A stretch of 64,000 bases of DNA, taken from the NCBI GenBank assembly GCA_011319805.1, contig SJRY01000062.1, positions 124,001 to 188,000 of the forward strand, read 5' to 3'. Shown here piece after piece: positions 28,314 to 57,639 of this stretch (the stretch's first letter is position 1; every line of letters begins with the position of its first letter). Below the pieces are notes generated by a model, which saw nothing but the letters and a program-made list of their open reading frames with translations, made no database searches and was not told the origin of the DNA. The position numbers were made by a program, and so were the translations under genes. This stretch comes from Macrocybe gigantea. Taxonomy: Eukaryota; Basidiomycota; Agaricomycetes; Agaricales; Callistosporiaceae.

Positions 28314-30660
28314 ATGAGTGACACCTCCAGTAGATCAGCCCTGGCTGTTGTCCCTGGATCAGGCCGGCGCTCACTGATTTCTTCGTTTCATATTTTCTCT
28401 CAAAATATAAATAGGAAATATGTACATATGGATGCTCTCCTCTCCACCTTGGGAGAGGATTATGATATTCTGTTTTCCAAGAGCCCACTTGGAACTGTTG
28501 AGACAAGCCCTGTCAGCACACAGCACTGACGGCGAGCCAGTAATTGGAGGTCCCAGTCATGCCAACTGGACTTGTATCATCTGCCACTCATCATACGAAG
28601 ATCCTCCTCATGTGATAGCTTATGTTCACAACTGCTTACATCAGTTGCATCCCTCCCTGAGATGCGATCTCATCGATAGTCACAACCTGATGATTATCAG
28701 CTTCTCCACTCTGAGAGAGCCTCTGTTTCTCGCAAATGCCTACTCTGATGTAGACGGAAGCACTATTCATCTGCTGCATGATTGTGCACAATACCTCTGC
28801 CCCAGGACCTGACCATCTGTCCTGGGGCCATGTCAAGCAGCTTGTGAAATTTCCTCACTTAGCTGATTTCGTCCTGAACATCGCTAATGCATATCTGGAA
28901 CTGGGTCATTGGCCTTCTTACTTCAAGCAGAGTCTGTCGGTGATCATCTCGAAACCTGGCAAACTTGCATATGATACCCCAAAGGCATTTCGTCCGATTG
29001 CACTTTTGAATACTCTCAGCAAGCTAGTCGAGAAAATGCTAGCACAATGTATGCAATACGAAGCAATCAAATTTGCTGTCTTCGACCTGAAGCAGTTCAG
29101 CAGCATCCGGCAGAATTCTATAGAGGATGCTGGTGTCTTCTTAACCCACATTATCCAGCAAGGCTGGCTAAAAAGTCTCAAGATGAGCATCATCGCATTT
29201 GATGTAGCTCAATATTTTCCTTTACTCAACCATTGCATGTTGGTGAGGATATTGCATCATGGAGGCTTTGCATGTCAAGTGTCAATGTTCTTCGAATCTT
29301 ACCTCGTTGGGCGTAAAACTTTGTATGCCTGGCGCAGTGCCGTCTCGCCTGAGTTTGATGCTAATGTTGGTATTGGCCAAGGCTCAGCTTTATCCTCCAT
29401 ACTGTCAGCCTTGTCTTTGGCACCAGTACTGAAAATATACCAGAAGATTGGTGATATGCTGACCATCATGTCATTTGTGGATGATGGGCTTATCATTGCT
29501 CAGTCCAAGTCCATTCTGGACAATGTTTCGAAGCTCCAGAGGGCATATGCTTCGGTGCACAACCTTGTCACGGACTTCGGTCTTGTTATCAAATACAACA
29601 AAACTGAACTGCAGCACTTCTCATGCAATAGTAAGGATCCCTGCCCTTCTATTGATTTGGGTTTTGCCCCTTTCACAAGTAATACTCCACTGCGACCCAA
29701 GGATGTCTGGAGATATCTTGGGTTCTTTTTGGATGTGCGCCTATCCTTTAGGGAACACGTCCATTTTTATGCAATGAAGGCACTGACTACTGCCAGGGCA
29801 TTTCAGATGTTGGGCAATTCTGTTCGGGCTTATCCCCCTAGCAGAAGCGCATCCTCTACCTGTTGTGCGCACGTCCTATCGCAACGTATGGCTGTTTGCT
29901 ATGGAACTTCAATGGCATGCATAATGTTGCACTGTTGAAGCAGTTATGCCAGATGCAGCGTAAAGCTTGCATCTGGATCAATGGTCAGTTTCATACCACT
30001 CCAGAGAGTGCAGCTGAAACAATGGCCTGTGTCGAGCCAATCGCCTGGTTCATCAAGCATTCAAAAGTCAGGTCCTCTACCTGTCTTGCTAATTCCAACC
30101 TGAGGCATGCCCTCAGGTCTTTAACTACCCGCCACAGGAGGGGGGTGATCCCTCAAAGTCAAAGAATTTGGCTTCTCTATCGAGGCAGCACAGCATGCTC
30201 AAGTCCCCTCTCAAGGACTTGGTGGACTGAGTAGTGATGGTGCCGTGCCCACGAAAGCAGATACACTCAGACAGTCAGTGTATTCGGCCTGGGTTTACCG
30301 AGGCAATACACTTGTGTTTGAAACTTGTCAGCCTGTCGGCAAAGCGATAAGCGATGATTCCGAGCTTATTGGATTGTGTACATCAATCCAAAAGGCCATC
30401 GCGCAGGATGGAGCTACATCCATCATGAACGTCTGAAAGTCGGGTCCTCTGCTTGTCTGGTGAATTCCAACCTGAGGCATGCCCTCAGGTCTTTAACTAC
30501 CCCGCCACAGGAGGGGGGTGATCCCTCAAAGTCAAAGAATTTGGCTTCTCTATTGGACAGGCAGCACAGCATGCTCAAGTCCCCTCTCAAGGACTTGGTG
30601 GACCTTAAACCACCAAACTTTTTATCCATGGACTATTTCGCAGATGCGAATAATCTAGGC
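28314..30660 (+). pseudogene. LINE copy B ORF2, decayed but with a long open RT
   Basis: Endonuclease start MSDTSSRSALAVV at 28314, frameshifted at about 28475. After the EN-RT deletion, an open stretch of 386 codons (28778-29938) covers the fingers, palm and thumb. It includes GSALSSILSALSLAP and the catalytic FVDDG (~29475), LRPKDVWRYLGFFLD and ALTTARAFQMLGNSVR. A 1-nt loss at about 29837 breaks the frame relative to copy C. RNase H is partly deleted. Of the plus-strand copies this is the best preserved RT. Confidence 0.85.
29107..30427 (+). repeat. Inverted repeat arm 1 (LINE B RT region)
   Basis: Pairs with 31797-33120 in opposite orientation. By eye the arms agree almost base for base and even share the same lesions: the GGTGGACTGAGTAG deletion junction and a missing TTGGACAG-like segment. 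Only single-base differences in homopolymers were noticed. Flanking LINE text diverges normally outside the arms. Confidence 0.85.
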
Positions 30661-30999: not shown

Positions 31000-33900
31000 A
31001 TCACAATGAAGCTTGGTGTTTGCTTTCGTCAAATACCCTACTGAATTGATGCTTAAGGTCCCCCAATCTGAAGGTTGGCTGCGGTTACTTCCACGCAAAG
31101 GCTCCGCAAGGAGCCATAACCCTAAGTATCCCCTGCTGCGAACCCACCCCCCGGATCCAGGATAAAAGCACCCGCCACCTTGTTTGACATTAGGTACTTA
31201 ACAAACCAGGAATGCACAAAGGTGTCATACTGGCATTCAGTTGGTCTATCCCAGTTACAGCACAGAGTCATGATGTGGATAGAGTCTGCAAGAGCATTCA
31301 TTGCTCTCAACAAAGTTGAACTGTGCTCAATATGCATTGATCGGCACGTGTCCGCAGGTGATGCGACAGCATCAAGCAAATAGCTCATTGCCTGTCACCA
31401 ACTTCATGAAGCCCATTCTTTTATGAAGCGGGCGCTCGTAGGATTCAGGCTTTCCTGCATTGTGGAATCAAAACGTGGAAGCGCCAATAAATTTCTTGAT
31501 TCCAGAGTCATGGAACCAGGAGGCATGCATGTCATCATCCACCTCCTTCCGGAGTGCCTCTGTGGTGTAAAAGGGACAAAGTCCCTGAGGGATGTCGAGG
31601 CCACACACTGACTCGTGCACTTCGACTTGAACAGCCCACTTCCAAGAGGAAGGGATGTGCCAGAATATAATCTGGTGCAGCTCAGATTGGGTGAACCAAG
31701 CATGCAATGAAGTGCACAGTGCAATAGAATGCGACTGCACAGAGTGGGGATCGCAATCGATGATGCGATTGATTGCATTCATCGAGTCGAGGAAGCACAT
31801 GATGGATGTAGCTCCATCCTGCGCGATGGCCTTTTGGATTGATGTACACAATCCAATAAGCTCGGAATCATCGCTTATCGCTTTGCCGACAGGCTGACAA
31901 GTTTCAAACACAAGTGTATTGCCTCGGTAAACCCAGGCCGAATACACTGACTGTCTGAGTGTATCTGCTTTCGTGGGCACGGCACCATCACTACTCAGTC
32001 CACCAAGTCCTTGAGAGGGGACTTGAGCATGCTGTGCTGCCTCGATAGAGAAGCCAAATTCTTTGACTTTGAGGGATCACCCCCCTCCTGTGGCGGGGTA
32101 GTTAAAGACCTGAGGGCATGCCTCAGGTTGGAATTAGCAAGACAGGTAGAGGACCTGACTTTTGAATGCTTGATGAACCAGGCGATTGGCTCGACACAGG
32201 CCATTGTTTCAGCTGCACTCTCTGGAGTGGTATGAAACTGACCATTGATCCAGATGCAAGCTTTACGCTGCATCTGGCATAACTGCTTCAACAGTGCAAC
32301 ATTATGCATGCCATTGAAGTTCCATAGCAAACAGCCATACGTTGCGATAGGACGTGCGCACAACAGGTAGAGGATGCGCTTCTGCTAGGGGGATAAGCCC
32401 CGAACAGAATTGCCCAACATCTGAAATGCCCTGGCAGTAGTCAGTGCCTTCATTGCATAAAAATGGACGTGTTCCCTAAAGGATAGGCGCACATCCAAAA
32501 AGAACCCAAGATATCTCCAGACATCCTTGGGTCGCAGTGGAGTATTACTTGTGAAAGGGGCAAAACCCAAATCAATAGAAGGGCAGGGATCCTTACTATT
32601 GCATGAGAAGTGCTGCAGTTCAGTTTTGTTGTATTTGATAACAAGACCGAAGTCCGTGACAAGGTTGTGCACCGAAGCATATGCCCTCTGGAGCTTCGAA
32701 ACATTGTCCAGAATGGACTTGGACTGAGCAATGATAAGCCCATCATCCACAAATGACATGATGGTCAGCATATCACCAATCTTCTGGTATATTTTCAGTA
32801 CTGGTGCCAAAGACAAGGCTGACAGTATGGAGGATAAAGCTGAGCCTTGGCCAATACCAACATTAGCATCAAACTCAGGCGAGACGGCACTGCGCCAGGC
32901 ATACAAAGTTTTACGCCCAACGAGGTAAGATTCGAAGAACATTGACACTTGACATGCAAAGCCTCCATGATGCAATATCCTCACCAACATGCAATGGTTG
33001 AGTAAAGGAAAATATTGAGCTACATCAAATGCGATGATGCTCATCTTGAGACTTTTTAGCCAGCCTTGCTGGATAATGTGGGTTAAGAAGACACCAGCAT
33101 CCTCTATAGAATTCTGCCGGATGCCGCTGAACTGCTTCAGGTCAAAGACAGCAAATTTAGTCGCTTCATATTGCATATGCCGTGCCAGCATTTTCTCGAC
33201 GAGTTTGCCAAGAGTGTTCAAAAGCTTGTGACAATTGGGTGAAAGGCCTTTGGGGTATCGTATGCGGGTTTGCTGGATTTCAGAATGATCTGGTACCAAC
33301 AGACTCTGCTTGAAGTAAGAGGGCCAATGACCCAGTTCCAAACATGCATTAGCAATGTTCAGGATGAAATCAGCCAAGTGAGGGAATTTCACAAGCTGCT
33401 TAACATGGCTCCAGGACAGATGGTCGGGTCCTAGGGCAGAGGTATTGCTACACAGCTCTAAGGACTCTTGGAGTTCTGCAGCAGAAAACGGGACCCAGTC
33501 CCGAACTGGATGTGGTTCTAGGTCATCAAGCTTATCTAAATTAACTGGTCAGTCCGATGCAGCATTATAGTATTTATCGAGTGTGTTCTAAAGCAACTCG
33601 ATCGGAAGGTGCGTTTAGCATCTTTAATAGCTAGCTGCCAGATGCGATAGTTACCCTCAGACTGGGTCTGCCTGAAGGTGTCCAAAGTTTTAGAACAATG
33701 CTGGTTCCACCAGCCTTTGCTCTGCTTCAATAGCTTGCACTCCTTGGAATGGAGGTCCCAAGCACAATCAACAGATTTGGAGAGAGTCTGAAGAATGCTC
33801 TCTAAATCATCTGGTGACTCGATTGGCACCAGGTCTATACTGAGCAGATCACCAGCAATGTCGAAGATAAACTCGGGCATGCAGTCCTTTGGAAGAGTCC

Positions 33901-34716
33901 GACATGGATCAGAAAGGTCTAGCAATGGAATATCTAAGCAGAGTGACAACGGACAGTGGTCTGAGGTCAATCTCAGGTCGTCATGAATAACCGGTGCCAT
34001 CCCAGCCATGTCAACAGAGATGAATATCAAATCGATAACCGAGGGCCACAGCTCTGGGTTATGTGAAACGAAGGTCAGGCCATGATTAAATGGCTCTGCC
34101 AATCAAGACCAAGGTCGAGTGCTGCATTACACAACATCTCTCCTTGTGTACACTGCGAGGTATGGACTCTATCCTAGAGTTCATAGTGACAATTGAAATC
34201 CCCTCCCAGATAAGTTAGGTTGGCAAAATCAGATCTTTCTGCACAATCATGCAGCAGATTAATAGTGCTTCTGTCTATATCAGAGTAGGCATTTGCGAGA
34301 AACAGAGGCTCTCCCAGAGTGGAGAAACTGATAATCATCAGGTTGTGACTATCGATGAGATCGCATCTCAGGGAGGGATGCAACTGATGTAAGAAGTTGT
34401 GAACATAAGCTATCACATGAGGAGGATCTTCGTATAATGAGTGGCAGATGATACAAGTCCAGTTGGCGTGACTGGGACCTCCGATTACTGGCTCGCCGTC
34501 AGTGCTGTGTGCTGACAGGGCTTGTCTCAACAGGTTCCAAGTGGGCTCTTGAAAAAACAAGATATCATAGTCCTCTCCAAGAGTGGAGAGGAGAATGTCC
34601 ATATGTACATATTTCCTATTTACATTTTGAGAGAAAATATGAAACGAAGAAATCAGTGAGCGCCCGCCTGATCCAGGGACAACAGCCAGGGCTGATCTAC
34701 TGGAGGTGTCACTCAT
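31000..34716 (-). pseudogene. LINE copy C ORF2 (EN-RT-RNase H-CCHC)
   Basis: Minus-strand ORF2. Endonuclease 34716-34174 is open for 180 codons and reads from MSDTSSRSALAVV through FFQEPTWN to GGDFNCHYEL, followed by a TAG that replaces a tryptophan codon seen intact in copy I. A linker is at 34102-33536. RT (33392-32385, 335 codons) contains GSALSSILSALSLAP and FVDDG. The connection is 32363-31995 and RNase H 31980-31468 (PTKADTLRQSV, DDSELIGL, CFLDSMNAINR). The C-terminal zinc segment near 31290 is partly deleted. Relative to the family there are one tryptophan-to-stop change, deletions at 32045 and 31990, and a few frameshifts. Confidence 0.85.
31797..33120 (-). repeat. Inverted repeat arm 2 (LINE C RT region)
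   Basis: The partner of 29107-30427, separated by a spacer of about 1.37 kb. See that entry for shared lesions. The arms would form a long hairpin. Confidence 0.85.
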
Positions 34717-34778
34717 GATGCATTGGCCTCTGCATTATGCTGCAGGGAGGCATTAGAATGTTTGGGACTTGATCGTGT

Positions 34779-41324: not shown

Positions 41325-43895
41325 TAATTTTGAATACCTTCCTCTCATTCCTCACCTATGAGGGATGTTTGCAAATGCTGATTATGTACAAGCAATTCAT
41401 TATGAGCATAAACACATCTCAGAACAGTCCACAGACATTTTTAATAGGTCTCACTATCACACCCTTTGAGAGACTCTTATCACTATCAGTAAAAAGACCT
41501 TTGATTTCTTCTACTTTTCTGATCCATAGGATATCATGCTTGGTTTCACTACAGATGGCTTTGCAGTATTCAAAAACTGAACAAAAAGTGCCTGGCCAAT
41601 TGTCTTGTTTAACTACAACCTTCCACCCAATGAATAATTTCACCAAGACTATCTTATCTCTTTAGGTACCATATCAAAGAAGCTGAAAAACATGGACTCC
41701 TTCCTGTGGCCATTGTGCCTGGAGATGATACAACTGGCCATTGGCATCAGCACTTTCAATGTTCTTTTCTAAAGCATCTTTGACATGCATAGCTACCTAA
41801 TTACAGGTTTTGGTAATATCATAGCAATGGCTTTGGTTATGCAGATGAAAGGACCTAACACCATTTTCCCATGCTACATATGCAAAATTGAAGGCATACG
41901 CATCCAGTCATCCAGCTGTCATATGCACTATATTCCTCTCTACTGTAATAATATTGATGGCATATTATTGGACAATATGATCCATTCAACTTTCACATAT
42001 GAATGTACAATACCTTCATGGAACAAGCACATGGAGTCCATTATGCCAACAACAGTACTACTTATGAAAGACTGGCAAAGCAATGCAGCATCAAAGGTAA
42101 ATATGCCTTTACTGAGCTATCTAGGCTCCCTCTCCTTCCTAATGTCATTTCCTTTCAACTTTATGCATCTCAACTGGGAAATTCTTATTTCTAATCTTGT
42201 CCTCTTTTGGACTGAAAAGTTCAAGAACCTTCAGCATGAGGAACAGGGGTATATGTTGGAATGGTCAGTTTGGAATATGATTAATAAAGCATCTGCTGAA
42301 GCCAGAGATTATATACCTCAGACATTTGGCATGCAGATGCCAGATGTTGTAATGAACTCTGAACAACTCACTACTGAAATGCAGTCAATCTGGACACTCT
42401 ATGTTGCTCCTGTGCTGCTGAATCATTGCTTCAAGACCAAGGCATACTATAAGCACTTTATCAAGATTGTCAAACTATTGAATTAATGCCTAAGATTCAA
42501 CATTTCATCTGAAACAATTGATGAGATCAATGATGGCTTCAAGTCATGGGTCGAAACATATGAGGAGTAAGTATTGATCCAATCAACTATAACTTATGCT
42601 GCTCACATGCATAGGCTATACTATTAGTATGATTCTGCAAGGCTCTTGGCCTGTCCCCTGCTTTATATTGTGGATGGAATCAGAACCATGGGCCTGCCTT
42701 AGGCTTATTGGGCATTTCTGATAGAACATTATTGTGGCAAACTCATGAAAGACATAACAAGTCACTGGAATTCATATGTCTTGATTAACAACTATGTAAC
42801 TGTGATAGTCTATCTGACTCAAATCAAGCATATATATAATCTGCATTCTAACCTATCTCTTGAAAAATAGAAGACAAATGCAAGTGCCCACATCTTCGAT
42901 GAATGTGAGTTTTCACTGCTAGAGTCTCAATTTAGAGCTTGATGCCTTATAGATCTGGACCTGGTTTTTTTGCCTCTGAAGATAGAGGCTGAGCTGCTGC
43001 CAGGTTTACATTAGAAAGTCTGCATACATCTTGTAACATGCTTTGGCAAGAACATCAGTTGCACTTGTAAATAGCTGCCAAAGAACATACTTGTTGCTCA
43101 GTATGTGTTATGGACATCACTCAAAGGACCATTCATTTTCTTATCTTATCTCTTCTATATCTCTTATTTCCCTATCACATAGTACTGCACAGTGCATAGT
43201 CACCAAGTTACTTCCTCCCCTAGTTATTCTGAGTCACTTCTTGCTAGTCTTACTCATCTACAGTCTACAGTACTGTGCAATCCATGGTCTGTGCTCACAT
43301 ATTGTAACATATATAAGGGCTTCCAAATGTACCAGTAGTGCTAGGCTTAATATTCTATTTGCCATTGTCTTAAACTACTCTCACACTTAGTCTGCCTGAG
43401 TCCTTTAAGATTTGTCTAGTCTAACAGTATGGAAAAGTAAGGTGAACAGGAGGGGGTGACTATTTTGATGCTCAAAAGCTTATGCAATTAGGCCATGACA
43501 GTTGCAATGCATCATTTGTTTGGGTACCAGTCTCTTTTTCTCTCTACACCTCTTATTGACTATTAAAAATAATAGTATGAACCGGATGTTGATATTCATG
43601 CCCACTATTATAATGTAGAGCCAGTCTACCAGACTCAAAACTTTTATGGTCAACTTCTATGTATTTTAGTTGTATGACTACCACTTGTTGCAGCCTGGTG
43701 TCTAGATGAGCCTACGGTCTTATTGCTCAGAGTGATCAAGCATGTTATTATATCATGCATTGATACTTTAGGCACTTCTTACTACTGCAGATTTGCTAAA
43801 ACAGAGGTGGTCGATCTCAATACTATAAAATGTGTTACTGGATGCATCTGAAATGCTAATAAGTAGGCAATCATTGATCACACATATGCATATCA
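41325..43895 (+). pseudogene. Tnp2/CACTA-like transposase, decayed, split by a solo LTR
   Basis: Plus-strand transposase text, in order: MLIMYKQFIMSI and DIMLGFTTDGFAVF-like (about 41350-41580); VPGDDTTGHWHQHF-like; NIIAMALVMQMKGPN with FPCYICKI (about 41800-41890); then YERLAKQCSIKGKYAF and FPFNFMHLNWEILISNLVLF (about 42070-42210). VWNMINKASAEARDYIP and WTLYVAPVLLNHCF-TKAYYKHF read to 42486, then YYYDSARLLACPL-like and YWAFLIEHYCGKL (about 42600-42740). After the LTR it resumes with DVDIHAHYNVEPV, TEVVDLNTIKCVTG (to about 43890). This order is typical of basidiomycete Tnp2-type transposases. The longest open stretch is 41785-42486. Stops and frameshifts make it inactive. The 5' end was cut by the LINE 5' end at 41324; terminal repeats were not found. 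Confidence 0.75.
43106..43426 (+). mobile_element. Solo LTR, ~320-bp family, copy 2
   Basis: TGTTA...TAACA termini with perfect 5-bp duplication GTATG (43101-43105, 43427-43431), inserted in the Tnp2 pseudogene. TATATAAGG lies at about 43309. Confidence 0.88.
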
Positions 43896-46843
43896 GATCT
43901 GATAATAAGGTATTGAAATGATAGTGGACTATGGCTATTGCTCATTTTCATGTTAAGGACATCTATCCAAGACTTTGATCTTCTAACCAAAGTAATATGA
44001 ATATAATAGACATCTGAATGGTAGATCATTGCTGTTATTTTTCTTTATGCCACACATTTCTCTGTGCACCTTGCCAGGTCTCCTTTATATCTTTTGCCTT
44101 ACAGAACATTTGCAAGAATTTATTTACTTTGCACTTTCTTTTTACACTAACCTGCTCTGAGTGTGATAGTTGCCACTCAAATTCAACCAAGAGAATATGC
44201 TCTTGACCTTTCTGCAAGTGGTGGTTATATCGCCACTGCATTTTGAGGCTGACTCACTAGAGAAGTACTCCACTTTTATGATGATCCTAAAGTCATCCAT
44301 CCTGTCATAATGTCTGACTGCAACTGATTCACCATTGGATGGTGAGGTGCATCATGAGCAGACTACTTCTGCTGCTGGACTCTGCAGAGTTGTATAACAA
44401 CACTGGGCTTATGGTGTGCACCAAAGAAACTGTAGATGACTATATAGAAAGTAGTAGATAAGGAAAAGAGAGCATTGGATCACTGAAAGTGTGGTAGAAG
44501 TTTGTCTAGGTTTGCCTTGAGCGGCATTGGTGCATGGAGTGCAGAGCAGTGGTAACAGTTGTCATCCTTATAGATCATATTGTCAGCCATCATGGATGAA
44601 TTTCTTGAGCTAAGAGGACCAGATTATCAACAGTATGTCTGATTTTTGTCAGATATTTTTTAAACTAACATCGAAAGCCATTGCCAAAGATACATTTTGC
44701 AAGTTTGTACTGATGGTGTTCATTGACAATTATCACTATGATTGACCTGATTGGATATTCCATTTCTGAATAAAATATATATTTTGATAATTTGCATTTT
44801 AATATCTGGGATTAACTTGTCAATTCTGGGCAATAATCTCAATCATAAAGACTACAAAATCATGAGAAATAGTGACATTCTCATTCAGCAATTCTACATT
44901 TTATTACATTAAGTGAATACATCCAATATCTTGTTCTTCTTCTCCCAATAGCCCCCATTGTTCCACCACCATGCTTGCTATTTCATATAGATATGCATCA
45001 TTTCACAAGCCCTTCTGTTAACAAAACCACATACTGTCTAATGTAATATAATATCTGACTTTGAAAAATGCAGTGCTCCTCTGGATGACGAATCATTATC
45101 TTGCAAGAAGATCAATATGATAATGATGAATACTATGACTCACTCCACTGATGACGTCCTAAGATGCCTGAAAACTGCTTCAGAATGTTTTTCTAATGTG
45201 ACTTCAACTCTTGCCTTTATCTCTGCATGCCAAATGGCTGAGTTAGCCAGTAATTTCAATGTTTTGAGGTATCAGATCATGAAAATGGTGTTTGCAGAAT
45301 GTAGTAGTCGAAAGGTATGAGACATTGCCAGTTATCTTATTTTTTCTTGACTTATCCCAGGACAAAGAACCCTCTATCCAATGTACACAAATTCAGCTCT
45401 ATCATCCTCAAACCGCATTCCAAATGCAACAAGTCCACCACTCTGCATGCTGTCTTCACACTCTTGCTATCTTCACCACCGTCATGCTGCCTTTCTCAAT
45501 TCTTCACAGCAGCATGCTCTTACCTCTTTGAGCATTGTTAGAGCTTCATTCTCATCTTCTGCTTCTGCTATTGATGCAAGCATTAGAATAAGCTATAGCA
45601 AGAGAAGAGAGAAGCAGAAAAAAGGCTCACTAGGATAAAAAACAGCGAAGAGAGAAAACAGCTTGGAAAAGAGAGGCTGGAGAGTGAGAAGCAGTGGAAA
45701 GAGCATCACTTCATCAATGACCACAGTAAATCTGCCTGTTCCAACTCCATCTATGAAGACTGTGAAGGCTGTGCCTCCTGTGCCTTTCTGCCATGAATAG
45801 CGGTTCCAGCTTCCAAGTGTGCACTGCTTTCCCACTACCAAGATATCCTCGCATGCCTCCTGCTGCTCCTGAATCTCACTAAACCCTGTCTATGCACTCT
45901 GCAGCTATATCTGCTCTGGCATTTTCTGCTATCAAAACTGCACCTGCAATATATCTATAGGGTAAGGCACTGCAGATATGTGAAAAAGCCCTTCATAAAC
46001 AACACGAAAAATGATGGGCAGATCTGCCAGCTAGCAAAGAAGAAAAAGGCAGTAAGGTTGAAGGAGCAGAGAAAGCAGAAAGAAGTCACTGCCAACTGCC
46101 TCCCTTCTTTGCTATCTCTTCTTTGTGTTCTTGTAGCTTCACAGTCATGCATCCTCGCTTTCTGCTTCTTACTCCAATACATGAGCAAGGCCCTCTGCCT
46201 CAATCTCCTCCTAAGCTGGGATCTCATAGCTCTCCTCAAATTCACCACATCTGACAAGGCCACAGATCCACTACTAGCCTATAGAATGTGTTAAGAAGCT
46301 TGATGCCATGTATAAGATGTAGATGGATGCTAACATAGTAAAGGGCCTTGAAGACATACTTGGTGAATGCTATAAGGGCTGTAGTGTAAGTCTTCCTTTC
46401 AAGATAGAAAAAAAATACTAATACTCATGCTTTCAAGCAGAAAAACAGGCTGAGATTTCATATAGAGATTCTCCTTCTCTCAGTACATGAATATGTTGCC
46501 AAGTACATGAAAATTTTGAGCTGTGTCTGAACATATTTTGTTGTGGCTCAGATCTAAGAAAGCAATGTCTACTACTAATACTTTCATGTATTGATTCAGG
46601 CCCTGACTATTGGAATTATAGCTGTCTCTCAGCATATATGAATCAGATGCAAACACATGACTTTTATACTTCAAAAATCCCTACATCTAGCATCAGAAAA
46701 AGGCCAGTCCTCCCCACTAGTTTGAAAATCCCAGCCCAAGTAAGCTCTCAGTGCATGATACATTCCCATTCTTATATACTGCTAATCATCCTTCTTGCAG
46801 ACATTCTTCTTTTTTTTTCTATTTGTATCTTCCATCAATAGTA
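43896..46843. other. Unassigned region between the Tnp2 pseudogene and the KDZ element
   Basis: No recognised gene. 44200-44640 has scattered coding-like text on the plus strand (FDDPKVIHPVIMSDCN-like), with many stops. 45090-46080 on the plus strand looks like a decayed gene: TDDVLRCLKTASECFSNVTS and QMAELASNFNVLRYQIMKMV at 45140-45310, followed by a serine-rich stretch and a lysine/glutamate-rich stretch (about 45600-46080). I do not recognise the family. The remainder is AT-rich without structure I can name. Confidence 0.4.
45117..46100 (+). pseudogene. Unrecognised decayed protein with Lys/Glu-rich tail
   Basis: Readable amphipathic text (LRCLKTASECFSNVTSTLAF, MAELASNFNVLRYQIMK) is followed by a serine-rich low-complexity segment and a charged REKQKK-type stretch, in shifting frames with stops. 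This arrangement could be the tail of a transposon accessory protein, but no motif identifies it. Confidence 0.35.
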
Positions 46844-47280
46844 GCTCCTACTTTTATATACAATAACAGGGCAATGCTAAGTAGTCCATTGTATATAATA
46901 CTAAGAACTTGTTATAATGGATAATTGTAATACATTGTAATTAATCTGGGCAGAAATTGTGATACATTGTAATTGATCTGAGAGGTGATTGTAATTCATT
47001 GTAATTGATCTGGAAGGTAATTGTAATACATTGTAATTGATCTGAGAGGTAATTGTAATTCATTGTAATTAAAACTGGAAGTCATTGTAATTCATTGTAT
47101 TCTCACTGGAGACCATCGTAATATATTGTAATTGAAACCCCACCTATTGTAATTCATTATAATTGAAACTACACTTATTGTAATATATTGTAATTGCTAC
47201 CAGTAGCCATTGTAATTCATTGTAATTGAAACTGCACTCATTGTAATTTATTGTAATTGGCACTGACAGCTATTGTAATT
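46844..47280 (+). repeat. Left terminal inverted repeat of the KDZ element
   Basis: The outer unique part (46844-46920) is followed by about 12 units of 31-32 bp, each with two ATTGTAAT boxes spaced 10 bp apart and a variable linker (GATCTGAGAGGTA, AAACTGGAAGTC, GAAACTGCACTC types). The linker series recurs in the same order, inverted, in the right repeat. Confidence 0.9.
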
Positions 47281-47379
47281 AATTATAATTGAAACTGAGA
47301 TATTTAATAAGGTATTTTTATTTACAATATAATTATTCTTCTCATTCAAATGGATCAACTAGCTTCTCTTTTCCTATTC

Positions 47380-47410
<31 letters not shown>

Positions 47411-47425
47411 TTCTTTCTCTTCTGC
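47380..47425 (+). repeat. (CTT)n microsatellite
   Basis: A run of CTT/TTC triplets. On the minus strand it encodes a lysine/arginine/glutamate-rich stretch at the C-terminal end of the KDZ gene. Confidence 0.9.
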
Positions 47426-50400
47426 CAAGTTGATGCCATCCTTTTCTGTGCCACTCTGGCTTCATGTTTTGTGCTAGCAAATATGGCAACTAATTTGTTG
47501 CAAACTTTTCAGCCAAGCAGTGGCAAAAGTATGCTTGTTTTCTTGCATATGCCTTGAGGCTACTAGAAAGAGAATTATCTTTATCATCATACCTGTTTTC
47601 TTGTTCTACTCCTTCTACTTGTAGTATACAATTGTCTGACACATTTCCTCCAGAATAAAATAGACTTCTTCTTCCCAGCATATTTTTCTAGCTTGAGATT
47701 TTGACCATTTGATGCACAGTCCTTCATCTAGCATCTGCTCGAAAGCATTGATCTGTAGTTCATTTGGGGCCTGTGGCACCAACCAAATTCAAGAGACTTC
47801 ATAGTGTCCAGAGCTCATAGCTTCTTTATCTGTCTCTGGAAGATTGAAATCATCTTTGCCAGGTCCTCGTACATCAGCATCCTTGAGCTTCTGCAGACAT
47901 GACTGCCAAGACCCATCTGGATCAGCAGCTAATAGAGCTGACTTCGCTTCACAATAGGACAGCACTGCACACCACATGTGGTGCTTGAAATGAATGTATA
48001 TACTGCACATATGAGTATTTGGATAGTTACCAGTTCCACTAATATTGAGTTTCTTGAACTGCCATAGGCCTGCAATAAGCTGCAAATGATGGCGAATAAT
48101 ACCCAGGGCATCATCTGCCTGGGCAATGTGCAAATGGACTTCACATAATAAGATATGTATCAAGAGAGAAGAACTGTGCATTGTGGGAGGAAGAGCTGAA
48201 GGAAGAAATAATGGTATGTTTTCTGCATCTACAGTCTTGTCTTTGTCAGCAGAAATGAACTGTGCTGCCACAGTAGCAATCATGGGACTTGTTCCAGGAA
48301 TGTAGGCAAGCTATGCCTCACGCCAATTGTTGATTGAGAGCATGAGAGACCATCTCTTTTCTTCTAGATCAGCCAATTGCTTTTGTGTTTGATATTTCTT
48401 TATCACTTTGATTTCATATATCAGGTTTTGCCTTGAGTTTCCTTTAGTAACTATATTTCACAGTTATTTTCTAATACCTACTGTTGTTCCTCGAGCTCCA
48501 GGCCAGTGACAAGAAAATCTGTCAATCCTATTTTGTAGATTATCAATTCTCCTTTGGCAGCCAGAGCTGAGTCTTCTTTGGCTAGCTCAAGCCATACATC
48601 CTATAAGGTATTGGCTATAAATGCTTTTAGTCTAATAAAAAATGAAGTGAATCTTATTTCAGAACTTACTTAGTCCATAATCATAAAATGGATTGGTCTG
48701 TTTATGGTCCACTTTCCAGGCATCAATTATCTTCTGCCATGCTTTGAGGGTTTCAGGCTGAAATGTAGCAGAAAATTGCTTATAAAGTTTCTTGTGCTTT
48801 TTTGCCATTACAATTGCATCCTTCAAGTAGCATAAGAATAGTTGACCTGTAATGTCTGATTATATTTCTATCATTTTATAATAATAAAATTAAACTGACC
48901 AAATTCAATAATTCTCTGATGGTTTAAACCACCTCATTGACTATTCAAGGCCTCATGCTGTGCTCCAGAATCCATCTCTCTTGTGCTCGGTCCTAGAAGA
49001 TTGGTACCAACCCAAGTAACTTCAATCTCTTCACTACATATGTGCCCAACACCATTCCGATAGGCCAAAGCAAAGTTTGCATAGCAATTTGGACCATGAG
49101 CATTGATATGCCAATTGGGAACAGCAAAGTCAATAGCTGTATTCTTATCAATCTGCATTTCGAGGGGAAAGTTCTTCATATACAGTCCAAACTTTTTTGC
49201 ATACTGGCACCCAATGTCTGATGTCAAATAAATATATTGTAGCTTTTCACTCTTGACCGATGATAAAACTGTATAATCCAGATTGGCAAATCTATATATC
49301 ATGTTCAATAACCAGTATTTGAGAGATTGATAACTATTTACTTACTTTTTGCCCAGTTGCAAATCACCAACACTATTTCTGTGTATCAGACCATGCCATG
49401 GACAGATTACAACCAATACACTAGTAATCTTATATCCTAGTTTTGATCGAACAGCTGCATGGACCAAGGCATTAGGTTCCGATTGACAAGTATTGATCTG
49501 TGGCATGAAAATAAAATGTAAACATGGAATATGTTATCAAAAATACAATACAAACCTCAGGTTCATGATTGATATTTCTCTTTTTCAACAAAGTAGGCCC
49601 AACTAGCATCCAGTTCAATATCAGTGATCTTACAGTTCTTTTGCTGTAGTTTGAAATTGCCATTGATAGCAAGATACCTTTATAGTGGGATTGATGAATG
49701 AATTATAGTTCAGATAAAAGAAAACATACTGGTGTGGTGCCATTTTCCAATTTTCTGACAAATTGCAGCCAGGATGGGGGCAAGCTGGACATTCGATTGC
49801 CAGCTCACCTTTGGAAGTGGCAGCTGGTCCCTCTAGATCATGCCCATGGCCTATCCTTTTACACATTATAAGGTGCTGCCAGATGCACACAGCATATTGA
49901 AACTCAGTCAAATGATTCTATATAATATAATGAATTAATATTTTGATATAAGACATACAAAGCCTTACCGATATGTTTTTCAAAAGAAGAGGATCAGTTA
50001 TATTGAGTAATATGTGGCAAAAGTCATATGCATTGACTTTGCCTTGCAAAGTCAGCTTGTGATAGAAATTGAGGCAGCAGAAAGTGAAGGCCATTTTTGG
50101 TCAGTTAAAGGTTGCAGGAAGCCAGCATGCATGAAACAGCTGTATATGATATGGGACAATACCATTCTGCCAACAGTTGCAAAAGACAATAGTGACTTGG
50201 TGTACTCCTGTGAGATCGATGATAGAAAAAGAGGTGGGCTCTTGGGCAGGTAGAGGACATGAAGGTCTAGCAAACTAGCATTATACAGCGATGACTTGAG
50301 AAAAAAAGAACCATTCTATTTCTAGAACTAATGTCAAAAGAATGGCCATCAATTCTAAAGATCTGATTATATACCTCAATATGATAGAAAGAATGAGCAG

Positions 50401-50740
50401 CATGCGAGGACAGAATACAATCCTGGCATCGTAACAGCCCTCTATCAATACAGTTGTGACATTTCCAGAGGGGATTGCCTTTGCCACAGGAACAGATTTG
50501 ACAATCAAGGGATTCTGCCAGACCATCATGACGAAGCAGCTCATCAAGGCAGATTTGGTGATAGCCAAGCCATTCCAATAGCTTGGTCTATATTGCAATC
50601 AGTAACAGGCAACAGGATCCTAAAATCAAAGCATACTGCATTGGTATTCTTCTTCTTAGGGTGAGCCTTCTGGTCAGGTGGTGATATTGTCTTAATGAGT
50701 CGGATGCTACTGTTCTCATCCTTGAGCATCAGGAAAAGAG
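47400..50740 (-). pseudogene. KDZ-family transposase with CxC2 cysteine cluster
   Basis: Minus strand. The N-terminal CxC2 cluster (50505-50370) reads CQICSCGKG, WKCHNCIDRGLLRCQDC and HAAHSFYHIEVY, the cysteine pattern associated with KDZ transposases. Next come FQYAVCIWQHLIMCKRIGHG and GELAIECPACPHPGCNL (49905-49755). The core lies at 49308-48934: TSDIGCQYAKKF, VPNWHINAHGPNC and GVGHICSEEIEVTWVGTN, where the first Asp, the His/Cys pair and the Glu of the catalytic fold are kept. The C-terminal helical part (48283-47789) reads LFLPSALPPTMH, HLQLIAGLWQFKKLNISG, SALLAADPDGSW and KLKDADVRGPG. It is interrupted by several short introns (AT-rich gaps with GT...AG). A stop replaces Trp after LNSQ at 48933. 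It may be only lightly degraded. Confidence 0.85.
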
Positions 50741-50949
50741 AATCATCTTGTGAAAATGGGTTAACAGCAGATATATCGGAAGGAGAATGTAATGCTTTAT
50801 TTGAGCCTGAAGCCTCTGATGAGTTCCATATACAAGAGCTGATGCGACCACCAGCAGACTTTCACAAAGTGGTGACTCAGAATTTGGGCTGGGGCTTGGA
50901 GGTACTGGATGTAGGCTCGGAGGATTATTGAACTAGTCTAAATATAGGC

Positions 50950-52757
50950 TTGCTTCACTTGGTTTTAGAAGCAGATGCAGCATTCTTGTCTTTTCGTTTC
51001 GAAGGCATGGTTGCTAGCACAAACAGATGGTGGCTGTGCACTTGTTCAATCGATGAAAAAGGCAAAAAAGCTGATTCATTGCGAGTTTGTTAATTGTAGC
51101 TGTATATCTGTTTGCCAAGCAGCAAAGATGAAAGAAGCGATAGTCATTGAAATATTACAATAGACTACTTAATCAGCATCATGCATAGGTACTTTTTCTA
51201 TCAAATTTTTAAAGCGACTAGGAGTATAAATAGAAATGCCACACTGGTACTGATCATGAACAGTTGTAGTTTGAGGATTGTAATCTTAGATGCTTGTACC
51301 ATGCCAGTGTAAAGGATCCCAAGCTACTACAGAATCAGCTACTCCTTGCATATAAATACTATAATCACAGTTGTAAAAATGGCCCCTTTGGTTATCAGTA
51401 AGAGTTTGTAAAGTAGTCCATGCCATCGCAAACTTGTGTAGTTGGCCTAGTTCATAATAGGTGTATCTATATTATAATTTTGATTAAGCACAGATAATAT
51501 CAGTGTGAGAGAAAAAACCAATTATCTGGAATAATTGGCTGCCAGTGCTCCTGTTAGAGGAGCCCACTCAACCTTTGAAAAAGAAAAGACATTATCGCCA
51601 ATGTCGAGATTGATCTCACTGATGTCACTCTTGTCCTTAGTTGCTTTCTTGTTCATCTGATCAACTCCTCTTTCTTTAATCCATTTGATGATATTATCAG
51701 AGATTGCATCAGAGAGTTTTTTGCAAATGAGAGTTCAGAAAAGAGCAAAAATATGAGCTGTCTGGTGATCAAGATGGTCAATCTCCTTCTGAGAAGTTCT
51801 TTTGGACAGGATATTGTAAACTCAGTTCAAAACTGGCTTGTTGCGAGACCCAGCTAAAAGTCCACATTGGACTATACTGCCAGGATCATCAAGCTAGAAT
51901 TAATCAATTAGCCATAGTATGAACTACTGGAAAAATACTTACTCACATGCTTAGGTGAGCTTGTACTGATCACAAGACAATCTCATCGATGAGAGCTAAC
52001 AGGCCAGGATGCTAGAAGAAGTCACAAATAACTATCATGATCAACTCCCCAGTCGTGCTGTCAAATATGAGGACACTGCAATCGGAAGCGATGTCATGGG
52101 GCACCCATTGAATATGAAATGGTTTCTTGGGTCCCTTCCAAGGATCATAGACTGAGCCCTTCACAATTGTCAAGGCCCACTTTTGATAAATTGCACCATG
52201 CTTGTACAGCCACTTCTTTAGGTCAGGATGGGGCTTGGCGAGTTTGCAGATGTCCAAGGTTTTGATGTTGGTGAGAAATGCTGCCTTCGTGTCAGAAGTT
52301 CAATCAAGACCAATGGTTTGGATAAATGTTCATTTGTCTTTGCAATGGTTGGTGAGGAATCTCTGCCTGACCTGCAGAGCAGTAGCGAGGCCAATTGCCT
52401 CGCTCAGATGTTCCTGCTTGAACCTGGAAAAAATTGCATCCATTCAGGAGATATAGTAGATCAAATATTTACCTGCCCAGCCAACAAGTGAGTAGATCAA
52501 AAAGCTGTCCAGAATTGGTTTTATGGCCAGCAAATGCCTCAGATGATTGCTTGATTAAAGTCTGAATGAAAAAGGCTTTCGAGGCAGGAGAAGTGGCAAT
52601 CGCCAGTAGATCCAACAGCTGTAAACTCTCTGCAATCATTTGGCACAAACTATGGGTATTTTGTGCTGCTTGATCAGACATGCTGTAGAGGAGTTCAGTG
52701 TCCAGAGATAAGACGGTGAAGATCATGGCTGTGTATACTTCTTTCTCTGCCCCCAAC
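50950..52757 (-). pseudogene. TET/JBP-like 2OG-Fe(II) dioxygenase remnant
   Basis: Minus strand, divided by likely introns. A helical N-terminal stretch reads MSDQAAQNTHSLCQMIAESL and TNSGQLFDLLTCWLG (52700-52470). LKKWLYKHGAIYQKWALTIV and VLIFDSTTGELIMIVICDFF follow at 52220-52012. The core end (51600-51230) reads ISEINLDIGDNVFSFSKVEW, then RGHFYNCDYSIYMQGVADSV and VAWDPLHWHGTS (about 51325-51290). The last supplies the distal metal-binding His. It ends with DYNPQTTTVHDQYQCGISIY and TPSRF, where the Arg may bind 2-oxoglutarate. The proximal HxD pair was not identified with certainty. Neighbouring KDZ supports the call, since such pairs are established in mushrooms. The predicted role is oxidation of 5-methylcytosine. 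Stops are present, so it is probably inactive. Confidence 0.6.
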
Positions 52758-53937
52758 TACCACCACCTTGAGCCTTTCCCTGGCCCAGCTGGGTTTTACT
52801 CAGGCAGTGATGGGCCTTGCTTTGTGGCCTTTCCTTGGCATGGCCAGGTTTTGCTATGAGCAATCATGCAGCTGCCAGTAGCAGAGGACCCTGCAGCACT
52901 ACCGCTTCTGCCATCACCCTGCAGCCCACTCCACCCGTGACACAAGTGTGACCCTGTGCCTCTCCCTTGTCCCTGTGCCTCCTTTGTTCCTCTGCCTCAC
53001 TCATCCCCTGCTTCTCCAGCTCCCTCCACAGCAGGGTGACATAGCACATAGGCTACATTACTGCTGGCCGCCAGCAAAGAGAGGTAGGTCTGCCCACCTC
53101 TCTTGCTTAGACTACTCCCCTCTCCTCCTCCTCCTCTTCAAGTACCTCATCCTCCTCCCTAAGTGCCTCATCCTCCTCCTCTCCCAGCCCTCTGCCACTC
53201 TCGTTCCTCATTCCTCATCTCTTGCCCCTTCGACCCTGCAAGGCCCAGTCAAGTAATGTGGCCCATGCACCATATTGTTAGTGGCTGCCAGCACACAGAT
53301 GTAATGAGGAGGACAACTCCTCATCCTCCTCCCCTCTCTGCCTCTTTCTGCCTTCCACCACCTCCCACTGCTGCTCCACAATGATGATGAGGGCTCAACA
53401 GCCTTTGCCCTTGCCTCTCCACCTCTCTCCACCTCCCACTACCTGCCACTGCTGCTTCATGATGATAACAAGGGCCCAACAGCCCTTGCCCTCCCCTCTC
53501 CACCTCCTACCACCTCCCACTGCCACTCTATAATGATGACAAGGGCTCAACAGCCCTTGTCCTCCCCTCTCTGCCTCTCTCTGCCTGCCACTGCCTGCCA
53601 CTACCTGCCACTACTGCTCCATGATGACAACGAGGGCCCAACAGCCCTCATCCTCTTCTCTCTGCCTCTCTCTGCCTGCCACTACCTGCCACCGCTACTC
53701 CATGATGACAATGAGGGCCCAACAGCCCTCGTTCTCCTTCTTCTCCTTGTCCCTCTCCTCTTCCCACCATAGCCTCTCCTCTCTACCTTGCATTCTCTCT
53801 CCTCTCCCTCTTGCTAGCCCTTTGTACATTTTTTTATTTCATTTCTTATACTACTTGTATGTTACCTGTTACATAGCCCTAATAATATTTGATTTGCTGC
53901 TAGCCTAGGGGAAAAAAAAAAAAAAAAAAAAAAAAAA
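52758..53937 (+). mobile_element. CT-rich VNTR segment ending in poly-A (possible composite retroposon)
   Basis: A pyrimidine-rich, low-complexity segment between the TET-like remnant and the accessory gene. It ends in a pure run of about 27 A at 53911-53937. Order: G/C-mixed 5' part (52758-52950), CT-rich part (52950-53380), tandem repeats (53382-53740), short 3' part, A run. A plus-strand retroposon is the simplest reading, but I could not find a target duplication or the 5' end. Confidence 0.45.
53382..53740 (+). repeat. VNTR, five units of 73-87 bp
   Basis: Each unit begins near ATGATGACAA and contains AGGGC(C/T)CAACAGCC followed by a CT-rich tail with CTGCCACTACCTGCCACT. Unit starts are near 53382, 53460, 53533, 53620 and 53702. 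Open frames across it result from composition. Confidence 0.85.
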
Positions 53938-54469
53938 TCAAGGCAAGTCATATGATACAAGCTGAAGTTTAGTCAGACTTTCATTCAACTCTTGGCTATT
54001 GATCCCCTTTTGTGTCAAACCAGACTACTTACATTACTCTCAACATAGGCAAAAGACCTTGGTCTACAACTGAATAATCCAACTGAATGACCTCTGAGCT
54101 TCCAGGCTTCTATGAAGCCAAGCAAACTAATACAACTTCCATCTTTTTCACAAATATCTTCACCGAGTTTGAGAAGAAGTGGCTGATCAGCCTGGATGAT
54201 GAAGACTTAGCAGCTGCTAAGGGAGAGGAAGCACTGGCCAGATCCATCAAGTTGAAGCAAAGGAAAAAAGTACGACTCTTTATCCAGCTTCTGTTCAAGT
54301 TTCTGATTTGTCAATATGCCAGCAAATCTACAACTGGTATTACAACTGACATGGTAAAGGCTCTGGATCTGGCACTCATGGTGTATTAAAGCTCTCAGCA
54401 TCCAACTGCAGCCCTGGCAGGCCTTTGCGAAGCTCTTCACCAACAAGCTGAAAGAAAAGGTCAAGCAGG

Positions 54470-54831
54470 TGTTACGGACGTTGTTCAAAGGGATGTTACA
54501 GCTGTCGCCCAAAGGGATGTTACAGACATCACCCAAAGGACCATTCATTTTTCTTATCTTATCTCTCTTCTCTTATCTCCCCATCATACTGTGCAGTGCA
54601 CAGCTATCAAGTCATTTTACCTTCCTAGCTATCCTGAGTCATCTCATCCCAGTCTTACTCATCCACAGTCTACAGCATTGCACAGTCCATGGTCCATGCT
54701 CAAGTACTGTAGTGTATATAAGGACTTCCAGATGTACCAGTAATACTAGGCTTAATATTCCATTTGCCATCGTCTTAAACCACTCTTGCACTTAGTCTGC
54801 CTGAGTCCTTTAAGATTCATCTAGCCTAACA
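54470..54831 (+). mobile_element. Solo LTR, ~320-bp family, copy 3, with triplicated start
   Basis: TGTTA...TAACA termini and perfect duplication GCAGG (54465-54469, 54832-54836). It is about 40 bp longer than its relatives because the first ~22 bp (GTTACRGAC then CCCAAAGGGA-like) occurs three times. TATATAAGG lies at about 54714. Confidence 0.88.
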
Positions 54832-56175
54832 GCAGGAGTGGAAGGCATATCAGAAGGCCAATCCTGAATCGCCACAATCGCTCTTCAAGTTCTGAAATAA
54901 GAAAATGCAGGCCTAGTATCAGGAAGTAAGCGATGAAATCAAGGAACAGGTTGAAGCCTTTCGTCAATAATCTAAGGATGGTGATGGCCCATCGGACAAT
55001 GAAGCGATGCAAAAGTAAGCAATACACCTCTCATATGGAATGCCTGGCAGGTGAATTAACCTACTACACAGAGCAATCACCAAGCTTCCTCACACTCTCA
55101 TGTCAGCTGCCGACGAGATTGTCAAACAGACAGGAATGAACTGTTTGATTATTGTCAGAGGTCCTGTCCCTCATATGGGTGGAGCAAATCAAACTTTCAT
55201 GTGAGGTTCAAGCTGTTATTGGTATTTGCTTTACTCAAATAAAAGCAGGGTCCATTGGGGAACCACTTTGAATGGCAAGACCTTTGAGGAGTATCTCAGC
55301 GATTATTATAAAGAAGAGTTTGTGCTGATGTTTGACAAATTTATAGAGGCTTCATTTGGTTGGTCTGTCACAAATCCTTACTAGATGCATTAATCAATTT
55401 GCAATAGACAAGGCTGCCTGCAAAGAATGTGCTCTCATACTACCTGTACCAAAGCAAGGCACATCTAAGTCTGAAGTCGATTACAAGACATCAAAGGAAT
55501 ACCAAGAACAATTAGCAGTAAAATGTGCAGCTAACAAAGCAATGTTGGATGCTTTCATGAACGATGAGCCTTTGGCAGCTGGAGCCTCAGCTACTATACT
55601 GATTCTTTGCAAGAGGCTGCCTCGGATGCTTCTGGTCCCATGACAGCCTCCACTCCCTGCACTATTCTATCCCACAGTTTATCTCCATCTCCAGTTCCTT
55701 CTTCCCAAGCCTCTCATCTATACCTGCTAATGAGGACTCAGTGGATAGGGACCCGATGGACCAGGATCCAGTGGCTGAAGCCCCAATAGCTGAGGACTTG
55801 GTAGGTAAAAGCAAGGCTCTTGTTGTAGCTGACACACCAATGTCCGAGGATGAGGCACCAGCTACCAGTATTCCTCCAGTCTCTACTTCAGCTCTTGCCA
55901 ATGAGGCTGCATTAACCAATAAGGCAGTCATCACTCTTCTTCCATACCTTAAGGACATCTCACAAGAGAAGCAGTGGCTGAGTTTGATTTCAAACTGGGT
56001 TTCATTTGAGCTTGCTAATCCACTCTGTAGTGTATGTTTCATGTTATTATTGCTATTTTACTGAATATCTTAGTTTTTTAAGTGTTTGCCTATAAAATTC
56101 CATCCAAGTCAGATTGCTGCCTGGCTTAAGAAAGGCTGCAAGGCTGAGGCTGCTCAATTGCCAGACATCGGTGAT

Positions 56176-56494
56176 TGTTAGACTAAATGAATCTTAAAGG
56201 ACTCGGGCAGACTAAGTGCGAGAGTGATTTAAGATGATGGCAAATGGAATATTAAGCCTAGCACTACTGGTACATCTAGGAGTCCTTATATACATTACAG
56301 TACTCGAGCATGGACCATGGACTGTGCAAATGCTGTGGACTGCGGATGAGTAAGACTAAGGAGGAGATGACTCAGAGTGACTAGGGAAGTGGAATGACTC
56401 GATGGCTGCGCACTGCACAGCGTGATGGAGAGGATAAGAAATGTGGGAAGATAAGACAAGAAATTGAATAGTCCTTTGGGCAGCGTCTGTAACA
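56176..56494 (-). mobile_element. Solo LTR, ~320-bp family, copy 4
   Basis: Inverted relative to copy 3. TGTTA...TAACA termini; duplication GTGAT (56171-56175) and GTAAT (56495-56499), one mismatch. It sits inside the accessory gene. Confidence 0.85.
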
Positions 56495-57041
56495 GTAATG
56501 GCACCAAGTTTGGCTTAGATTGGACTTTGTAGTAGAAAGCTATTCAACCAAGTTGGTGCCAGAAAACCCTGACTCATAACATTCCTCCTAATGCCACTTG
56601 GTCTTCATTATTATGTGGTAGTGTTAATAGCATTCTGCTTGTTCTTTTAGGCCTTAGTTGGTGGGTCAATACAGGTGGATCTGATATTGCTAGTAGCCCA
56701 GACATCATTGCAGTTATTGATGATATTAGCTGGGCCTTGGTTCAGCTGCGAGCTATGCTGGATTTGGACAAGAAAAGGCAAGCTGATTCTACTTTAGACT
56801 ATGATGAACCTGATGCAAAGAGGTAAGTCTGATATATCTAAAATTTAAGTCTTGAAATTGATTTGTGATTCAGGCAAAGGAAGGGTGTTCAAAAAAGATG
56901 ATGGCTCTGTTGATCTGTTTTTTTTGTATACAATTTATAAACTGTGCTTATGTGGGACTTGTAATACCATGCTATGGGCTTTCTGAGCTGCAGACTAAGA
57001 TTGTTCAATACTATTTATAATAAATTACAATGACCATGTTG

Positions 57042-57510
57042 GAATTACAATGGCTATCGGTGCCAATTACAATGAATTACAATGGGTGCAGTTTCAATTA
57101 TAATATATTACAATGGATATAGTTTCAATTACAATGAATTACAATAGGTAGGGTTTCAATTACAATATATTACGATGGCTGCCAGTAGAAATTACAATGT
57201 ATTACAATAAGTATGGTTTCAATTACAATCAATTACAATGGTCTCCAGTGAGAATACAATGAATTACAATGACTTCCAGTTTTAATTACAATGAATTACA
57301 ATTACCTCTCAGATCAATTACAATGTATTACAATCACCTTCCAGATCAATTACAATGAATTACAATCACCTCTCAGATCAATTACAATGTATCACAATCT
57401 CTGCCCAGATCAATTACAATGTATTACAATTATCGATTACAATAAGTTCTCAGTATTATACACAATGGACTACTTAGCATTGCTCTGTTATTGTATACAA
57501 AAGTATGAGC
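57042..57510 (-). repeat. Right terminal inverted repeat of the KDZ element
   Basis: Complement of the left repeat: an array of ATTACAAT pairs with linkers in the same order, followed by the unique outer part through TATACAAAAGTATGAGC at 57510. It is slightly longer than the left copy because of a few more or longer units. Confidence 0.9.
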
Positions 57511-57639
57511 CATGACTCCTTCTATACTCACTTTCACTATATATGCTCATCTGATTCTGTTGCCTGCCTTGTGAGTGTTACGTTCTTTCTGAGGATATAT
57601 TTACATTAGGGCCAGTAATGCAGTTAGTGCCATCTTGGA

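Follow-up and report, generated by a model that had tools for sequence, protein, structure and literature searches.

A dead KDZ transposon with a TET-like dioxygenase between long inverted repeats in Macrocybe gigantea

In a 64,000-nucleotide stretch of the Macrocybe gigantea genome (assembly GCA_011319805.1, contig SJRY01000062.1, positions 124,001 to 188,000; hereafter the window), a KDZ-type transposase gene and a dioxygenase-like remnant lie between two long inverted repeats. Is this one transposon that moves with a potentially DNA-modifying enzyme or a cluster of separate insertions, and if it is one unit, what would the enzyme do for it? Following up an original prediction made from the sequence alone, we recovered all of the parts it had named: the inverted ends, the KDZ transposase with its CxC2 cluster, the dioxygenase remnant with its HWHGT motif and an accessory gene on the opposite strand. 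We are highly confident that the locus is a structurally complete, dead, TET-carrying KDZ DNA transposon, and we give even odds to a role of its dioxygenase in countering silencing. For the two taken together we put the probability at roughly 0.62.

Borders were searched for across the 41.2-Mb assembly using the outermost shared bases as a pattern, allowing two mismatches, with the reversed pattern as control. This gave 11 matches versus none for the control. Eight of these form four left–right pairs, namely the window element (on contig C62) and elements of 18.1 kb on C175, 21.8 kb on C224 and 10.8 kb on C280; the other three ends (C306, C309 and C224:11920) are unpaired. In every pair one end starts with CA and the other with GAGTC, followed in both by a shared GCTC/GCTT..TACTTTT. 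Placed by this shared end sequence, the outer borders of the window element are at 46836 and 57518, a span of 10,683 bp with CA...TC termini (one end CA, the other GA when read inward). The element predicted at 46844 to 57510 is real, but each of its borders has to be moved outward by 8 bp. Its ends measure about 460 bp. They pair at 94% of positions in an ungapped stretch of 321 bp, and a gapped alignment of 463 columns gives 88.6% identity.

All four elements are flanked by 7-bp duplications, matching at 7/7 positions in the C175 and C280 elements, 6/7 in the window and 5/7 in C224, with all three mismatches being transitions. Summed over the four, 25 of 28 positions match. The 12 mispaired flank combinations gave a mean of 2.17 of 7 and a maximum of 4, and among 20,000 sets of flank windows drawn at random the highest sum was 18. 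A duplication at the ends, of 8 bp or another length, had been anticipated; it exists, but a length of 8 bp was rejected (4 of 32 positions matching, versus 25 of 28 at 7 bp), and lengths of 3–6 and 8–12 bp gave no match comparable to 7 bp in the four elements. As a separate observation, the single ends at C309:103938 and C224:11920 share 2.4 kb of sequence, including their flanks, at 91% identity, and at least one of them was probably copied within a larger repeat.

Gene order is the same in all four elements, judged by the positions of the matches and with the interior of the C224 element partly read: terminal inverted repeat (TIR), transposase, dioxygenase, opposite-strand accessory gene, TIR. 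The C280 and C175 elements stand at different sites, each with its own 7-bp duplication, and share two long stretches at 94.1% and 95.5% identity, dioxygenase included, with ends at about 90%; by eye, C175 carries some 7 kb of Gypsy-like sequence that is missing from C280. Cargo and ends have been mobile as one unit. The idea that neighbouring insertions were bracketed by two repeats by chance finds some footing in the later inserts within the accessory gene and in the large size of the C224 element, where the pieces of the dioxygenase match are spread across 6.5 kb. However, paired ends, 7-bp duplications and the same cargo recur in all four elements, and the C280 element is a compact 10.78-kb unit that can be aligned with C175 along its length, making such a coincidence extremely improbable. 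The single unit with both ends and all cargo that had been proposed is therefore repeated in three more elements, and in none of those three do the two repeats turn out to be parts of separate insertions. Around the C175 element itself, at least three insertions are nested in the region C175:73220-97191 (L037, L039): a third KDZ/dioxygenase copy lies in two parts on either side of the element, and the surroundings, with many CACTGAC repeats, look like yet another transposon.

The arms of the window element are built from 31–32-bp units. The two arms hold 17 copies of the unit ATYGTAATNNATYGTAAT, which is absent from the remainder of the window, and ATTGTAAT recurs at 10 and 22 bp, spacings close to whole turns of DNA. 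By eye, the C280 arms consist of a related but different unit, ATTGTTAATGATTGTAAATGnTCTGG, and the window unit has no occurrence in the C280 or C175 arms, so that within a subfamily the two arms have evolved their array in concert. The two subfamilies of the element are only about 64–70% identical in aligned DNA. These 31–32-bp units are likely to be the transposase-binding sites.

The transposase is well supported by profile searches. The KDZ profile (PF18758) has a minus-strand match in the window (48931-49497; 98.1 bits, cut-off 26.6, E 1.0e-26), and one exon alone gives E 5e-24. Joining the pieces of the gene with X yields E 7.7e-36 for KDZ and E 4.6e-21 for CxC2 (PF18803), bearing out the profile assignment expected for this gene; in the CxC2 region the pieces lie in different frames. 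D, D and E residues stand at plausible positions in ANLDY, TSDIGCQY and SEEIEVTW, and are candidates for the catalytic acidic triad of KDZ transposases. The M. gigantea genome holds 29 matches to the KDZ profile (32 candidates scored). We compared the transposases of the window and of the inner C175 copy with 22 loci drawn from the KDZ and dioxygenase matches, omitting second pieces of the same genes. Close relatives, at 55–63% identity over the main stretch, are found at C175 (two copies), C224, C280, C105 and C306:69518, with broken copies among them falling below this range, while those at C282, C48, C55, C120, C146:10963, C244 and C227 have about 22–37% over theirs. There was no match in this comparison for C126, two further C146 loci and C297, nor for the C306 and C309 dioxygenase loci, which have little or none of the domain. 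The window is one of five among the seven close copies in which the dioxygenase adjoins the transposase.

The dioxygenase pieces of the window match a relative from Lentinula (P0005) with E 1.4e-37 and score 248.5 bits against a profile of 13 relatives; 200 shuffles gave no match listed at E<=10. An HxE motif is present in 11 of the 13 relatives and in all five other copies read in the M. gigantea genome. At this position the window copy reads YYE (51459-51451), with HWHGTS at 51309-51292. The family includes a protein of Agaricus bisporus (P0010), and HxE relatives are held by Suillus, Leucogyrophana and Fomitopsis (Boletales, Polyporales). The predicted fold of P0005 has its best matches in TET2, CMD1, NgTET1 and CcTET, above other 2-oxoglutarate (2OG) enzymes, and on this modelling the family is assigned to divergent TET-fold 2OG/Fe(II) enzymes of a PE-like type with an HxE...H pattern. 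Identity to CcTET (Coprinopsis cinerea), human TET2, NgTET1 and CMD1 in the alignments is 7–14%, and the family has HxE in contrast to HxD. A near-intact relative with HYE...HGTS occurs in the C65:251909 region (L050) and the C67:40523 region (L051), two contigs that are 99.97% identical over 3,267 bp. It has a C-terminal chromodomain (PF00385, E 1.7e-7), lies in CpG-rich surroundings beside a dehydrogenase gene with no KDZ match on its contig, and may represent a TET-like gene that has been domesticated and is directed to marked chromatin.

A working copy in the window is not supported. The first residue of the HxE motif is Tyr (codon TAT), which removes the metal-binding His, and the pieces read contain six in-frame stops; because of these, together with frame breaks and an interrupted accessory gene, the window copy is dead and complete only in structure. 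By eye, several of its stop codons stand at Trp or Gln positions of the relatives, and since they do so, changes at CpG would not have produced them. We do not claim an origin similar to repeat-induced point mutation for these stops; the C/T differences between the two arms are spread over CpA (17), CpC (4), CpG (3) and CpT (3).

How would such a unit have worked when intact? The KDZ transposase would bind the long inverted ends through their arrays of 31–32-bp units, and the whole unit would be moved by cut and paste with a 7-bp staggered cut. The dioxygenase would oxidise 5-methylcytosine on copies of the element, so that the transposase gene stays expressed. Counting C/T differences between C280 and C175 by dinucleotide in the two long stretches, with direction not polarised, gave 102/258 at CpG, 61/1191 at CpA, 29/708 at CpC and 19/837 at CpT in the first, and 26/60, 22/515, 17/325 and 5/401, respectively, in the second. 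This is the pattern expected from deamination of methylated CpG; the elements were probably methylated and so seem to have borne the mark for a TET enzyme, although the pattern does not set apart elements that carry the dioxygenase.

The fold fits both TET2 and CMD1 and so does not fix the substrate of the enzyme. The same transposon could instead carry a TET-like enzyme that makes a modified base (5-hydroxymethylcytosine or a hypermodified cytosine, or by acting on N6-methyladenine) and thereby marks or protects the element, an explanation we regard as possible but doubtful. As a further alternative, a TET-like gene of the host could have been captured once and carried passively, with no benefit to the element; we consider this improbable. 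In favour of this, the KDZ-linked copies read closely (window, C280 and inner C175) are all damaged, the near-intact chromodomain relative stands beside a host-like gene away from any KDZ match, and two close KDZ copies have no adjacent dioxygenase match. Yet the dioxygenase keeps the same place and orientation in all four two-ended elements, across two subfamilies as divergent as these, and the HxE...HGTS pattern is preserved in relatives.

Several results count against a dead TET-carrying KDZ transposon whose enzyme opposed silencing. Neither the Tet_JBP profile (PF12851, over its curated cut-off) nor 2OG-FeII_Oxy_6 (PF20515) matches the window, although both have matches elsewhere in the genome; a sequence search found no PDB chain for the dioxygenase, and the TET-like fold is predicted for the Lentinula relative rather than for the broken window protein. 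The assignment to Tet_JBP therefore fails at the level of the profile, as the original prediction had named for its refutation, but the family is TET-like by fold in that relative. Because it is recovered in this way, the profile appears to be too narrow for it. The search with the outer ends, from which full copies and empty sites had been hoped for, gave the three further two-ended elements but no empty site of the window element in its own assembly. C105 and C306:69518, both of the close KDZ subfamily, have no adjacent dioxygenase match, and weaker accessory gene matches occur outside the four elements, at C244 and C259. In the window arms only 3 of 27 C/T differences are at CpG, so that there is no CpG bias, and no unchanged CpG remains. 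The observed/expected ratio of CpG is 0.19 in the window element, 0.36 in C280 and 0.52 in C175 (0.46 in its flanks); in six other loci it is 0.78–0.99 in five and 0.52 in L042. Such loss of CpG means that, over the long term, methylation did reach these elements. With a ratio of 0.34, window sequence outside the element is poor in CpG as well, and the depletion is therefore uninformative on the dioxygenase.

In the C175, C280 and C224 elements, homologues of the accessory gene occupy the corresponding place. The protein has no Pfam match over the cut-off, and none of 5,100 candidates matched at E<=1e-3, with a query joined from pieces that makes this absence weak. Besides the solo long terminal repeat (LTR)-like insert listed with the other features in Table 1, a second, related one lies in this gene at about 56176-56597 in opposite orientation (inverted match 56176-56329), with no flanking 5-bp duplication seen.

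Table 1. Coordinates, in window positions, of the parts of the element and its flanking duplications.
Feature	Coordinates	Strand	Remarks
Left target-site duplication CTTCCAT	46829..46835	.	6/7 identical to right copy; 7-bp length fixed by four elements
Left terminal inverted repeat	46836..47297	+	End type CAATAGTAGCTC..., 31-32-bp repeat units ATTGTAATNCATTGTAATTGATCTGR; inner border approximate
KDZ transposase gene	47345..50861	-	Several exons, frame breaks; outer limits are open-frame limits
KDZ match	~49679-48937	-	Within transposase gene
CxC2 match	~50208-49975	-	Within transposase gene
TET-like (PE-type-like) dioxygenase pseudogene	51172..52726	-	Upstream of transposase, same strand
Accessory gene, no assigned family	54087..56823	+	Interrupted by inserts; search-matched part 55603-56667, N-terminal part from 54087 by eye
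Solo-LTR-like insert, 362 bp	54470..54831	+	In accessory gene; GCAGG (5-bp duplication) both sides
Right terminal inverted repeat	57027..57518	-	End type GAGTCATGGCTC... read inward; inner border approximate
Right target-site duplication CTTCTAT	57519..57525	.	Flanks right end

Elsewhere in the window, judged by eye, non-LTR reverse transcriptase/endonuclease-like frames occur at 8248-9162, 28754-29938 and 31468-34734 as near-duplicates on both strands, and a 237-amino-acid open frame at 41773-42486 resembles a Plavaka-type transposase.

How does the element relate to known systems? TET-bearing KDZ transposons are already published, and KDZ elements with long TIRs have been described before, as the available text of two reports makes clear (Kojima 2025, PMC12730594; PMC12810828); the comparisons below are with descriptions in that text. 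Complete TET+ transposons have been described in fungi, with enzymes split into PU, AG and PE types, PE having HxE and its named cases coming from Agaricales and Pezizomycetes (PMC12730594). Read from sequence, our family carries this PE hallmark in the relatives and not in the window copy. Zisupton elements have 8-bp duplications and include a TET+ PE-type Zisupton in Agaricus bisporus; Kyakuja elements have 7-bp duplications and AG-type dioxygenases (HxD, close to CcTET), and Kyakuja-1_LB and -2_LB of Laccaria bicolor are without TIRs and have CA..TG termini (PMC12730594).

Like PE-type Zisupton, the window element combines a KDZ transposase with an HxE-family dioxygenase missed by standard profiles and recovered by structure, probably in a host of the same order, Agaricales, and it has terminal inverted repeats. 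The order was judged from a single protein, a short-chain dehydrogenase: Collybia nuda (Agaricales) is among its closest named matches, at about 75% identity, the best matches overall reach 78%, and no named protein is near-identical. Unlike Zisupton, it has a 7-bp and not an 8-bp duplication, and the text on Zisupton available to us reports no 31–32-bp end arrays, asymmetric end types or accessory gene of this sort (PMC12730594). With Kyakuja it shares the KDZ transposase, the 7-bp duplications and one end starting with CA, but it differs in its TIRs of about 460 bp, its CA...TC termini and its HxE-type family (PMC12730594). Cryptococcus KDZ1–KDZ3 are of similar size (about 9–11 kb) and have long TIRs (139–241 bp), with duplications of 8 bp in KDZ1 and 4–8 bp in KDZ2 and KDZ3; they have CxC1 where the window has CxC2, and no TET gene is mentioned in the text at hand (PMC12810828). 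Compared by description, the element fits neither Zisupton nor Kyakuja fully. It may still be of the kind of one of the A. bisporus Zisupton families (Kojima 2025), going by the description in that text. No element that unites a PE-type TET and a KDZ transposase with 7-bp duplications and long TIRs made of repeats was found in the literature searched, that is, the available text of PMC12730594.

The 7-bp duplications, the long helically phased TIRs (10/22/32 bp), the two end types and the long-held set of three genes could mark a KDZ branch distinct from both Kyakuja and Zisupton as those are described, in which the accessory protein could bring the TET-like enzyme to the repeats of the element. 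We consider this rather unlikely; if true, demethylation would be targeted and not genome-wide. The locus described here provides a clean unit, with ends, target duplication, gene order and repeat array, for a poorly known class of transposon-borne TET enzymes. Moreover, the HxE relatives in Boletales and Polyporales suggest that PE-like enzymes reach beyond the cases that the available text names, from Agaricales and Pezizomycetes (PMC12730594).
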